From an uncultured Slackia sp. (GTDB lineage: Bacteria; Actinomycetota; Coriobacteriia; Coriobacteriales; Eggerthellaceae), in NCBI RefSeq assembly GCF_944321625.1, contig NZ_CALUMA010000047.1:62001-126000 (forward strand): a stretch of 64,000 nucleotides of DNA, in the 5' to 3' direction. Below the pieces are notes generated by a model that was not told the DNA's origin, made no database searches, and was given only the letters and a program-made list of their open reading frames with translations. The translations under genes were made by a program, and so were the position numbers. Of the stretch, positions 3,128-35,909 are shown piece by piece; position 1 is the stretch's first letter; each line of letters opens with the position of its first letter.

Positions 3128-3178
3128 CTTGTGATAAGCTTGGCGCACGCCCTTGCAGAACCCTTGCTGCAAGCCTGC
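3128..3178 (-). repeat. degenerate 11-bp-phased CTTGC units in rpoB leader
   Basis: On the + strand CTTGT (3128), CTTGG (3139), CTTGC (3152), CTTGC (3163) and CCTGC (3174) occur at spacings of 11, 13, 11 and 11. Read in the direction of rpoB the core is GCAAG. It resembles the perfect arrays at 7831 and 33027 but is weaker. It lies inside the predicted untranslated leader, so here it would be in RNA. Chance resemblance is possible. Confidence 0.35.
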
Positions 3179-7401: not shown

Positions 7402-7704
7402 CTATCGCAAAAGAACTCTCCCTGTAGGAAGATTCGCGACAATCGACATCGTGCCGCCTATTGCCTCAATGTAGCGTCGAATGGAATCGAGGCTCATGCA
7501 GCCTAGCTCTCCGTTTTCCATGCGGGATACCCGATTCTGCGAAACGCCCATTGCGGCGGCAAGCTCAACTTGAGTCATATTGCACGCCTTACGCGCCTCC
7601 CGCAAGCAATATGCATCGATTTCCGCCCGTGTACGCTCGCGTGCCACCTGCATTTGCTCTTCGGTAATCCCATGCTTTTTGAGATAAGTATCGAGATCAG
7701 CCAT
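7402..7704 (-). CDS. XRE-family antitoxin-like DNA-binding protein
   Basis: Protein of 100 residues with a C-terminal Cro/C1-type helix-turn-helix (MTQVELAAAMGVSQNRVSRME, about residues 42-62 when the initial M is counted as part of the first helix) after a charged helical N-terminus. The arrangement is that of HigA- or PezA-like antitoxins. The start at 7704 has a GAGG site and a leader of about 35 nt from the promoter at 7747-7775. An alternative ATG at 7734 (MWNIQYLRTK) has a stronger AAAGGAG site, but that site would lie at or before the predicted transcription start. No toxin gene is adjacent, so it looks like an orphan or a remnant of a higBA-type pair. Confidence 0.75.
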   Translation of the reverse strand: MADLDTYLKKHGITEEQMQVARERTRAEIDAYCLREARKACNMTQVELAAAMGVSQNRVSRMENGELGCMSLDSIRRYIEAIGGTMSIVANLPTGRVLLR

Positions 7705-7746
7705 CTTGGTCCTCAAATATTGGATGTTCCACATATCATCTCCTTT

Positions 7747-7810: not shown

Positions 7811-7880
7811 TTCAATGCTAGCTTCCAAACCTTGCCGAACCCTTGCATAAACCTTGCCGAACCCTTGCCTGATTCTTGCG
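7811..7880 (-). repeat. five CTTGC units at exact 11-bp period with conserved flank
   Basis: CTTGC begins at 7831, 7842, 7853, 7864 and 7875, exactly every 11 bp; adjoining units alternate CCGAA and variants. Next to the array is TTCAATGCTAGCTTC (7811-7825). The same flank and the same five-unit, 11-bp array occur at 33007-33075 upstream of the DUF4160 gene. Read in the direction of the downstream (leftward) gene the unit is GCAAGGKTTNN. The period of one DNA turn suggests sites for a protein that binds side by side on one face of the helix. It is too short for CRISPR. Confidence 0.8.
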
Positions 7881-32431: not shown

Positions 32432-32683
32432 CTATCGAGAATCTATGGGCGTGCTCATCTCGTACAGATCCTCGGGAGACATATCCTGACCGTGCGGCCA
32501 CACGACGCAATCGCCCCCATGGGCAATACTCACCTGCTTGAAATAAGCTGGGCATGAAAGCTCACCGAAAAAATCGCCCTTGATATACGGCTTCATACTA
32601 AAAACCCTTTGTTCGCCCGATTCATACGTCAAAAGAAGACGCAGGTCATCCAAGGCAACAACGTTTTGCAGCATCGGCCTCAT
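32432..32683 (-). CDS. DUF2442 domain protein
   Basis: Protein of 83 residues (MRPMLQNVVALDDLRLLLTYESGEQRVFSM...). The core V-x-P...L-x-L-x-F/Y-x(2)-G-E...F-x-M and the tail VVWPHGQDMSPEDLYE are typical of DUF2442. These small proteins are very often encoded right after a DUF4160 gene, as here. The ATG at 32683 has GGGAGGTT upstream and lies only 11 bp from the DUF4160 stop. Toxin-antitoxin function has been proposed for such pairs but is not proved. Confidence 0.8.
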   Translation of the reverse strand: MRPMLQNVVALDDLRLLLTYESGEQRVFSMKPYIKGDFFGELSCPAYFKQVSIAHGGDCVVWPHGQDMSPEDLYEMSTPIDSR

Positions 32684-32694
32684 CCAACCTCCCG

Positions 32695-32961
32695 TCAACG
32701 TAGCGGATCAATTCTGAAAAACTCCCCCGTTTCCTGCAGGAGTCTCCAATTAGCCCTAAGTTCTTCCTCGTGAATCGCCATCCATGCTAGCACAAGTTTC
32801 TCTTGCTTTGCAGGCAATCGGCCCTCGAGCAAGCTTCCGTCAAGCCCATACACAGCCGACTCATCCGCATGGTACGCATGGATATGGGGCAAGTGATGTC
32901 TTCCTCCCTTTTCTAAAAACATTCGAATGACGATTCCGAAAAACATACTGAGTGTTGGCAT
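32695..32961 (-). CDS. DUF4160 domain protein
   Basis: Protein of 88 residues (MPTLSMFFGIVIRMF...). HHLPHIHAYHADESAVYGLDG and LPAKQEKLVLAWMAIHEEEL are signature parts of DUF4160. The start at 32961 is preferred because a strong GGAGGAG site is present; an upstream frame reaching 33003 has none. It pairs with DUF2442 (32432-32683) in one operon. The five-unit CTTGC array lies 66-114 bp upstream. A toxin-antitoxin-like role is inference. Confidence 0.82.
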   Translation of the reverse strand: MPTLSMFFGIVIRMFLEKGGRHHLPHIHAYHADESAVYGLDGSLLEGRLPAKQEKLVLAWMAIHEEELRANWRLLQETGEFFRIDPLR

Positions 32962-33006: not shown

Positions 33007-33075
33007 TTCAATGCTAGCTTCAATACCTTGCCAGACCCTTGCCCAAACCTTGCGGAAATCTTGCCGGAATCTTGC
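33007..33075 (-). repeat. five CTTGC units at exact 11-bp period, second copy
   Basis: CTTGC begins at 33027, 33038, 33049, 33060 and 33071, again exactly every 11 bp. The flank TTCAATGCTAGCTTC (33007-33021) equals that of the array at 7811. It lies upstream of the DUF4160 start, with the same strand and order as the first array. The copies of the repeating unit differ between the two loci in the bases between the cores, so the cores and the phase, not the full sequence, are conserved. Confidence 0.8.
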
Positions 33076-33173: not shown

Positions 33174-35909
33174 CTAGTACGCCTCGTCCAGGGGGGCGTG
33201 GGCTTTCACGTCCAAGCTCAGGTCGGCGAACTTGCCCTGCGCGTAGCGGTCGCGAGCCACTTCGGCAATCATGGCCGCCTGATCGCCGCACGCCGAAAGA
33301 GGCGGCATGGTCAGGCGCACACCAATCTTCTTGCACATACGCTCGTAGGCCGCGCGCAGCTCGGGATTAGCCGCCACGCCGCCGCCCAGGCAGAACTCCT
33401 TGGCGCCCGTCTCGAGCAGCGCCGCCTTGGCTTTTGCCACCTGCACATCCACCACAGCTGCCGTGAAACTGGCGGCGATGTCGGACATGTTGAGTTCGCG
33501 CCCTGCCTGCTGCTCTTTTTGGATGTAGGTGGTCACGGCGGTTTTCAGGCCGGAAAGGCTGAAGCGCAAATCGCCCGAATGCATGAGCGCGCGCGGGAAA
33601 TCGATGGCTTTAGGATTGCCCTGCGCCGCAAGCTTGCTGATGATAGGACCACCGGGATAGCCCAGGCCCAACGCCTTGGCCACCTTGTCGAACGCCTCGC
33701 CCACCGCGTCGTCGATGGTGGAGCCCAGCGTAACGTAGTCGCCCCAGTCGCGCACGTGCACGAGCATCGTATGGCCGCCGCTCACGAGCGACACCACCAT
33801 GGGCGGCTTGATGTCGGCGCGTGCGATGCGGTTGGCATAGAGATGCCCCTCCAGATGATTCACGGCGATAAGCGGCTTATCGGCGCCCCACGCCGCGCCC
33901 TTGGCGAAGGCCAGACCCACCACCAGTGCGCCCACCAGACCGGGAGCATAGGTGACTGCGACGGCGTCCAGGTCGCGCCAACGGAGATGTGGGGAGGCAG
34001 TGCGGAGTTCCGTCTCCGCAGCGAAAGGAATCCCGTCATTTTGACACGAAAATTCACCCGATTCGCCTAAATTAGCGTCAAAATGACGGGATTCCTTAGC
34101 CGAACCGTCCTTTGCGCTCGAATTGCCGTGATTCGCCAAGCCCAAGCTGCGCGAAGCCGCGTCCAGGCATTCGTCGCACACGCCGCAGATGGCCTCGATG
34201 TGCTTACGGCTCGCGATCTCGGGCACCACGCCGCCGAAACGCGCATGGAAATCGATCTGCGAGGCCACCACGTCTGAAAGAATCGTGCCGTTGCCATCGA
34301 TGATGGACGCCGCCGTCTCGTCGCACGAGCTTTCGATGGCGAGAATGAGCGGATGGGCGAAAGCAGGCTCCTCGTCAGCAGTGGCCGCAGGCACTCCCGC
34401 GCCTGCGAAGGTCTGCCCTGCTCCGTCGATCGCCCCGGAGCAAACGGCATCGCGCCCTGCGCCCGACCCTTCGGAGGGAGCAGCGGAATCGCCGGAGGTC
34501 GCAACCTCATCCACACGCAGCGTCATGCCTGCCACATCATGCTGAGCCACCGGCAAGGGACCGGTCATGATGACGGCATCCTCTCGGTCTGAATAGTAGC
34601 GCGGGCGCACGCCGATGCGCGCGAGTCCCAGATTCTCGTAGAAGGCCTGCGCGCCCTCGTTGGACAGACGCACCTCAAGCGTCATTTCGGTGGCGCCCAA
34701 ATCACGCGCGTCGGAGGCGACAAGCCCGATGAGCTCGCGGGCAATGCCGCGACGGCGATACGCAGGGTCGGTGGCGATCTTCAGAATCTGCACCTGGCCA
34801 TCCACAATCCAGCCGCCGCAATAGCCCACAAGCTTCTTGCCGTCGTACGCCGCCCACCAGGTGCGATCCTTGCGCGGAAGCTCGTCAGCCACGAGCGTTG
34901 CGGCCCAGGCATCGCTCCCCATGGTCTCGCCCTCGAGGCACGCCACGTCGCGCACGTGGGCCACATCGAGCGGGCGATATGCCAGCGCAGCAGCCGCACC
35001 CGAAGCATCATCCTGCACGCCGGTGTGCAGATTCTTCGGCTCCGTCTTGGCGAGGCGAATACGCTCGTTTTCTTCGGCATCGGAAAGACGCGTGTACACC
35101 GGCAGCAGCGTGGCGGGGTTGCCATCGCCCGTACGTGGAGCAAGCAGCAATCCGCGACCGGAAACCGACCACAGCTTTTCAGGCGCAAGCTGGCCCATTT
35201 CAGCAAAGATATCGGCATATTTTGCCAGAGCATCACCCAGAACGATGAGGCCGGATGAGCTAGCGGGACCGTTGGATTCCGCAAGCCCCGCCGAATCTGC
35301 GGATTCCGAGGTATCAACAGGTTCGGCGGCGTCAGAAAGATGCGTGCCGCCTCCGTCAACCGCAGAAAGAGCATCCTCAAGCCATTCCCCTGCCGCCGCG
35401 GCCTTTACCACGGCATCGCTGGTCAAGCGGTGCGCGCCGGCACCGTCCAAATCAAACAGCGCCGGATACACCTCCTTGCGCATCGCGTCGGCAGCAACCA
35501 GCACGCGCCCGCGCAGGCCATCAGCCCACGCGTTCCACGCAACCGCATCAAGCGTGGACACACCAAAAAGCGGCACCTCAAGCGCCGATGCCACGCCCTT
35601 TGCCGTCGCCATGCAAATGCGCACGCCGGTGAAGCTACCGGGGCCGCGCCCGCACACGATAGCAGCGATGTTGCCCTTGGAAATGCCCGCAGCCTCAAGC
35701 GCGGAATCCACCTCAGACAGAAGCACGGTGTTGCTCGCGCGATGGGCGGCCACCTCGCGCGTAGTCACGATGTCAACCGACGCGACCTTCATCGCGTCAC
35801 CCGCCCCCGCCTTGTCACTCGCATTCTCGCGCAGCTTCCCCACGCCAATAGCAACGACCTCATTAGCCGTATCAAATGCCAGAATATATTCGCGTGCGTG
35901 CTCGCTCAT
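33174..35909 (-). CDS. TsaB-RimI-TsaD fusion protein (t6A synthesis)
   Basis: A 911-residue fusion of three proteins usually encoded separately. Residues 1-290 are TsaB-like (FDTANEVVAIGVG; CGRGPGSFTGVRI). Residues 315-470 are a GNAT domain like RimI, the acetyltransferase of ribosomal protein S18 (IATDPAYRRRGIARELIG). Residues 535-911 are TsaD (AIESSCDETAASI; metal-binding HLEGH and LVSGGHTML; CLGGGVAANPELR). TsaD and TsaB make threonylcarbamoyladenosine at tRNA position 37. The start at 35909 (MSEHAREYILAFDT) has AAAGGGT upstream. About 51 residues between DECLDAASRSLGL and RWRDLDAVAV in TsaD are extra compared with the family; they come from a palindromic DNA insertion. Confidence 0.93.
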   Translation of the reverse strand: MSEHAREYILAFDTANEVVAIGVGKLRENASDKAGAGDAMKVASVDIVTTREVAAHRASNTVLLSEVDSALEAAGISKGNIAAIVCGRGPGSFTGVRICMATAKGVASALEVPLFGVSTLDAVAWNAWADGLRGRVLVAADAMRKEVYPALFDLDGAGAHRLTSDAVVKAAAAGEWLEDALSAVDGGGTHLSDAAEPVDTSESADSAGLAESNGPASSSGLIVLGDALAKYADIFAEMGQLAPEKLWSVSGRGLLLAPRTGDGNPATLLPVYTRLSDAEENERIRLAKTEPKNLHTGVQDDASGAAAALAYRPLDVAHVRDVACLEGETMGSDAWAATLVADELPRKDRTWWAAYDGKKLVGYCGGWIVDGQVQILKIATDPAYRRRGIARELIGLVASDARDLGATEMTLEVRLSNEGAQAFYENLGLARIGVRPRYYSDREDAVIMTGPLPVAQHDVAGMTLRVDEVATSGDSAAPSEGSGAGRDAVCSGAIDGAGQTFAGAGVPAATADEEPAFAHPLILAIESSCDETAASIIDGNGTILSDVVASQIDFHARFGGVVPEIASRKHIEAICGVCDECLDAASRSLGLANHGNSSAKDGSAKESRHFDANLGESGEFSCQNDGIPFAAETELRTASPHLRWRDLDAVAVTYAPGLVGALVVGLAFAKGAAWGADKPLIAVNHLEGHLYANRIARADIKPPMVVSLVSGGHTMLVHVRDWGDYVTLGSTIDDAVGEAFDKVAKALGLGYPGGPIISKLAAQGNPKAIDFPRALMHSGDLRFSLSGLKTAVTTYIQKEQQAGRELNMSDIAASFTAAVVDVQVAKAKAALLETGAKEFCLGGGVAANPELRAAYERMCKKIGVRLTMPPLSACGDQAAMIAEVARDRYAQGKFADLSLDVKAHAPLDEAY
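34025..34097. repeat. 21-bp inverted repeat inside tsaD coding sequence
   Basis: The arm at 34025-34045 (begins AAGGAATCCCG, ends TTTTGAC) and its exact reverse complement at 34077-34097 flank 31 bp. The structure lies in an in-frame insertion of about 150 bp (roughly 33984-34140) that adds about 51 residues to TsaD. The protein segment is hydrophilic. A self-complementary element inserted in frame recalls palindromic coding repeats of Rickettsia. Confidence 0.85.

Follow-up and report, generated by a model that had tools for sequence, protein, structure and literature searches.

About 15 promoters in the genome of the source Slackia (G000, 2.4 Mb) carry tandem arrays of 11-bp units joined to a −10 element, and we interpret these arrays as operators at which an activator, most likely C44, a protein of the SARP family, switches on a natural-competence regulon. 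From the sequence evidence described below, we put the probability of this reading at roughly 0.78. The genes behind the arrays form a nearly complete competence set, confirmed by Pfam matches, and the same promoter geometry recurs in other genera of the Eggerthellaceae. Two of the arrays lie in the window, the whole 64-kb stretch of DNA that was analysed.

Two five-unit arrays in the window

The preliminary description of this DNA had claimed a five-unit CTTGC array with an 11-bp period joined to the flank TTCAATGCTAGCTTC, a twin of the same design at 33007-33075, and a small gene downstream of each in equal orientation, all of which we confirm, the genes following the arrays immediately. CTTGC begins at 7831, 7842, 7853, 7864 and 7875 in array 1 and at 33027, 33038, 33049, 33060 and 33071 in array 2. 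The flank adjoins the arrays at 7811 and 33007, its array 1 copy containing the −10 element, and both arrays are oriented, with their genes, along the minus strand (Table 1). A three-unit pattern with at most one mismatch was matched seven times in the window, against 0.01 expected from shuffles, six of these matches being the two five-unit arrays themselves.

The XRE-family gene behind array 1 has a second promoter-like TTGACA...TATAGA just upstream, and no partner toxin was recognised for its antitoxin-like product. Behind array 2, the DUF4160 protein resembles a DhiT-type toxin, scoring below the NCBIfam cut-off, and the DUF2442 protein is its likely partner. A two-unit GCAAGGGTTCTGCAAGG on the minus strand at window positions 3136-3167, upstream of an rpoB-like start, does not fit the −10 geometry and was set aside as probably due to chance. 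A near-perfect inverted repeat, GGAATCCCGTCATTTTGAC ... GTCAAAATGACGGGATTCC, was also seen at window positions 34020-34097, within an apparent tsaD-type coding region.

Table 1. Arrays, promoter elements and array-associated genes in the window (first seven rows) and elsewhere
Feature	Position or location	Strand	Details
Operator array 1	7831..7879	−	five 11-mers (C/T)GGCAAGGTTT; plus strand reads CTTGC; exact 11-bp period
Operator array 2	33027..33075	−	five units; exact 11-bp period
Array 1 −10 element, TAGCAT	7815..7820	−	exactly 10 nt downstream of last GCAAG
Array 2 −10 element, TAGCAT	33011..33016	−	10 nt downstream of last GCAAG
XRE-family HTH protein, antitoxin-like	7402..7734	−	behind array 1; HTH_3
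DUF4160 protein	32695..32961	−	first gene behind array 2; PF13711, 5.9e-20
DUF2442 protein	32432..32683	−	second gene behind array 2; PF10387, 6.7e-12
comEA-comEC	C93		behind core
yraN-comM-dprA	C18		behind core
comFC	C27		behind core
A24 prepilin peptidase	C40		behind core
cpaB-tadZ-tadA, Tad/Flp pilus	C110		behind core
rpsF-ssb-rpsR-rplI	C117		behind core
JAB/RadC-like protein	C29		behind core
AbiEi- or REase-like proteins	C5, C29, C108		behind cores
GNAT-like paralogues	C81, C120		behind cores
Two-gene unit	C72		behind core
AbiEi/REase-like family members	L033:5939-7030; L039:4075-5142; L031 (C5); C47:15102; L065 (G066)		

A genome-wide promoter family with fixed geometry

Across the whole G000 genome, the three-unit pattern was matched 29 times, mostly in promoter position, compared with a single match for the reversed control, and almost all arrays are directed, on the GCAAG strand, toward a gene. 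A dispersed family had been one of the readings offered at the outset, together with the proviso that a chance-level count, or a location inside unrelated coding sequence, would count against any special role. The family is real, and both origins are ruled out by the shuffles and the reversed-pattern controls.

The minus-strand consensus drawn from 67 array units, CGGCAAGGTTT, recurs with a period of 11 bp, and the final unit of an array ends in GCAAG-N10-TAnnnT, that is, with a −10 element and without a −35. The common core GGAAAGGGTTTGGCAAGGTTTnnnAGCTA terminates arrays at 13 sites in G000, against none in the control. In its tight form, the geometry is GCAAG (or GAAAG)-N6-GCAAG-N10-TAnnnT; with GCAAG in both places it occurs exactly at six sites in G000 (control, 0) and with at most one mismatch at 21 (control, 6). 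Given the six control matches, the one-mismatch cores at C29:56684, C47:138015, C85:71732, C91:10418 and C47:65136 look like chance and were discarded.

The promoters take two forms. In the short form, which includes both window loci as well as C5 and C40, the array abuts the −10 element. In the long form, represented by eleven promoters, a proximal unit pair is accompanied by a distal cluster lying about 143, 154 and 165 bp upstream of the proximal unit, with a further single unit at about 77 bp in most copies, such that unit distances stay near multiples of 11 over a span of up to about 165 bp. Over about 200 bp, the eleven copies share a partly conserved sequence that includes GCATAATCCGCGCCGCAAAAACCG, an element found between the distal and proximal units at about −62 to −40 (C18, C29, C81, C93, C110, C117 and C120) and perhaps bound by a second regulator. 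Because the likeness extends beyond the units, these copies are not fully independent evidence within the genome, and their spacing could stem from common descent instead of a physical lattice. For weak units between the clusters, phase 0 scores 1.72 and two other phases 1.67 and 1.64, an effect too weak for us to claim a continuous 11-bp lattice.

Competence genes behind the arrays

The genes served by the arrays cover most of a competence machinery (Table 1). Pfam matches identify its parts as Competence (PF03772, 7.6e-41), HHH_3 together with SLBB in ComEA, DNA_processg_A (7.6e-64) and Mg_chelatase (3.4e-87), as well as UPF0102, Peptidase_A24, RcpC and T2SSE. The names JAB/RadC-like, AbiEi-like and GNAT-like come from reading the protein sequences, library matches being weak or absent. 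A shared operator standing before both DNA-uptake and strand-processing genes is the organisation expected of a competence regulon.

A link between the arrays and toxin-antitoxin genes had been proposed from the two window loci. It holds in so far as several such genes are served, but they make up only part of the set, the core of the regulon being the competence machinery. A single toxin-antitoxin promoter type was therefore rejected, since the majority of the conserved targets are competence genes.

Two further toxin loci were observed in this context: comEC is directly followed by a RelE/HI1420-type toxin-antitoxin pair (L038:4269-4884, C93), and the prepilin peptidase gene by a BrnT-type toxin gene (L034, C40), an arrangement that looks like the incorporation of addiction modules into competence operons. 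Additionally, a family of AbiEi/REase-like proteins of about 330-380 aa adjoins arrays in two genera, in either orientation, its C-terminus bearing a weak likeness to the restriction-endonuclease fold (REase_MTES_1575).

Conservation in other Eggerthellaceae

Conservation was assessed in the upstream regions of comEA or rpsF, 55 in total, from 28 Eggerthellaceae genomes, a set that leaves out G000 and G099, the genome most closely related to it. Of the 1024 pentamers, GCAAG is the most over-represented in these regions, with 107 occurrences against 28.5 expected and 22 for the reverse complement. GCAAG-N10-TAnnnT is matched 15 times, whereas no other spacing between 0 and 40 gives more than 4 matches, and the distances between GCAAG pairs peak at 11, 22, 33, 44 and 55 bp. 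Control regions upstream of the regulator gene showed no GCAAG excess (14 against 18.6 expected). Sites in other genera lie upstream of cpaB (G011), rpsF-ssb (G135) and yraN-comM (-dprA) (G098 and G125), while another Slackia species, G103, has them upstream of the prepilin peptidase gene, rpsF-ssb and a HicAB-like pair. Besides, in several genera, a GCAAG pair with the array-type −10 geometry precedes a conserved membrane peptide of about 32 aa, MKxxLVTLATLAAMGGLFVxVALQxPRLEKxR (L198, L200, L208-L213 and L221).

These data bear on two readings that give the arrays a different role. One sees in them a dispersed repeat, or a mobile promoter cassette, spread by copying and free of any common regulatory role, as the roughly 200 bp shared by the long-form promoters might suggest. 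However, likeness stops at the array and the −10 element, terminal repeats are absent, the targets are functionally coherent, and the core is kept upstream of equivalent genes in other genera despite diverged flanks, which together make spread by copying extremely improbable. According to the other, a repressor or a DNA-coating filament would occupy the arrays and silence acquired genes, in keeping with the length of the arrays, the near-multiples of 11 in the long form and several cargo-like genes among the targets. Silencing nevertheless appears very unlikely to us, as the missing −35 and the one fixed distance from the last unit to the −10 element across genera are expected of an activator, and the conserved targets consist mostly of ssb and core competence genes rather than foreign DNA.

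SARP operators and the candidate regulator

SARP proteins are known as activators of antibiotic clusters, and their operators have a period of 11 or 22 bp, with the 3′ repeat 8 bp from the −10 element by the usual count. The view first taken of the arrays, that no element of this form had been described, is thus mistaken, because SARP operators match them (PMC5930380, PMC10936776). The published operators are direct repeats of 11-bp period with the 3′ repeat just upstream of the −10 element; the AfsR repeats occupy −40/−30 and −29/−19, and region 4 of the sigma factor docks on AfsR, not on a −35 (PMC10936776). PimR, of the SARP-LAL type, has the heptamer CGGCAAG with 4-bp spacers (PMC5930380). 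This heptamer and spacing, common to the PimR, SanG and PolR operators of Streptomyces, match the array unit CGGCAAGGTTT, and Streptomyces SARP operators resemble the arrays further in their 11-bp period, their −10 register, the lack of a usable −35 and in runs of up to three or more tandem units. If TAnnnT is placed at −12 to −7, CGGCAAGGTTT falls at −29 to −19, the register of AfsR (PMC10936776). With 11-bp direct repeats and a fixed −10 distance replacing the −35, the arrays would accordingly belong, as far as sequence can tell, among SARP-type operators.

G000 encodes two BTAD proteins, C44 (840 aa) and C107 (1005 aa), named here after their contigs. C107 was rejected as the regulator, its clear orthologues being confined to the Slackia genomes G099 and G103, with a fragment in G061. 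C44, in turn, is present in 131 of 138 Eggerthellaceae genomes and is single-copy across the family. It combines a P-loop-like N-terminus, which gives weak AAA/STAND matches, with a C-terminal SARP domain (residues 581-840) in which an OmpR-type winged-helix DNA-binding domain is followed by BTAD, the order that defines the SARP family; no match to solved structures was found for the N-terminal half. PimR and AfsR carry the SARP domain at the N-terminus, whereas in C44 it is C-terminal, and this reversed order speaks against counting C44 among the SARP-LAL (PimR-like) proteins.

The family assignment is borne out by the orthologues, 26 of 26 of which match BTAD and 21 of 26 Trans_reg_C, and by a C44 family profile that matches EmbR (1.8e-13) and AfsR (3e-11). 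The recognition-helix region, NFYSxWSxLRR, is almost invariant. In an alignment with AfsR, the contacts W74, T88, S91, R94 and K95 are kept in C44 as W, S, S, R and K, while Q48, P79, R87 and R92, the last being the base-reading arginine, are not (PMC10936776). C44 is 83% identical to a protein of Slackia equolifaciens DSM 24851, the only species matched in the contig scan.

An array also stands upstream of the C44 gene, in opposite orientation, in two Slackia genomes, G000 and G099. In the regulator upstream regions examined from other genera it is not conserved, and autoregulation as a family-wide feature is unsupported beyond these two genomes. comEC, scored as absent where there was no match beyond metallo-beta-lactamase level, is missing in 6 of 7 genomes without the regulator against 9 of 131 with it (Fisher p about 4e-6, uncorrected for relatedness or genome incompleteness), and part of the joint absence may stem from incomplete genomes and common ancestry.

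Sites of the OmpR/PhoB type are likewise head-to-tail 11-bp repeats next to a −10 element with no −35, and G000 has 17 DNA-binding domains of this type. The main rival for the array-binding protein is hence a two-component response regulator of the OmpR/PhoB type, acting on the same operator and regulon. Yet the arrays precede none of the 17 genes, whereas the SARP gene has one, and the array heptamer is the published SARP-LAL consensus (PMC5930380), so that we consider a response regulator unlikely.

Proposed mechanism

In the reading that we favour, with C44 as the activator, the SARP-type winged-helix protein would bind the minus-strand CGGCAAGGTTT head to tail along one face of the DNA, each 11-bp unit being occupied by a single protomer. 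The two protomers nearest the −10 element would lie at about −29 to −19 (the last) and about −40 to −30, positions from which they would stand in for the missing −35 and recruit RNA polymerase to TAnnnT, while additional units may increase occupancy or cooperativity. The initial suggestion of a protein polymerising along one face of the DNA survives in this modified form, as its one-face, helical-turn geometry fits tandem cooperative binding of an activator. C44 is presumably gated by a signal sensed through its N-terminal half. Once active, it would switch on the uptake machinery (Tad pilus, prepilin peptidase, ComEA, ComEC and ComFC), the proteins that protect the incoming strand and recombine it (SSB, DprA, ComM and the JAB/RadC-like protein) and toxin-antitoxin- or AbiEi-like genes, both window loci included, and would thereby be expected to render the cell competent.

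A more far-reaching version is conceivable, in which a SARP assembled over as many as about 16 turns of an 11-bp lattice is the competence master switch of the Eggerthellaceae, and recruited toxin-antitoxin modules, some by themselves and others placed after comEC and prepilin peptidase, penalise the loss of competence genes. We regard it as speculative and, on balance, doubtful.

Comparison with known systems

If our reading is correct, the arrays would be the first concrete operator for competence in this branch of the Actinobacteria, and C44 the first candidate for its master regulator; with the operator, the target list and a single candidate regulator found across the family, competence control becomes directly testable in gut Eggerthellaceae. 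The role of SARP proteins would then extend from antibiotic clusters to the control of horizontal gene transfer, and toxin-antitoxin-like genes would be tied to a competence programme. A literature search, not exhaustive, returned nothing on competence control in Eggerthellaceae or Coriobacteriia, or on SARP proteins together with competence; the novelty would thus lie in the use of an operator and regulator of the SARP type for a competence regulon that contains toxin-antitoxin-like genes.

Compared with the SARP operators of Streptomyces, the arrays described here have five units and, in a long form of 200 bp, upstream clusters at fixed positions, and they precede competence genes where the Streptomyces targets are antibiotic clusters. 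Competence regulons are driven by ComK in Bacillus, ComX in Streptococcus and Sxy/CRP-S in Haemophilus and Vibrio, in each case through one operator type placed before uptake, pilus, ssb, dprA, comM and radC-type genes. The Slackia set differs from these in regulator family and DNA site, in an uptake pilus of the Tad/Flp type, and in the inclusion of several toxin-antitoxin- or AbiEi-like genes. Micrococcus luteus, in which the upstream signals and the regulatory cascade of competence are yet to be identified (PMC12849477, PMC8467076) and no competence operator has been defined, belongs to the same phylum, Actinomycetota, and shares the uptake parts of the Slackia set, comEA/comEC and Tad pili.
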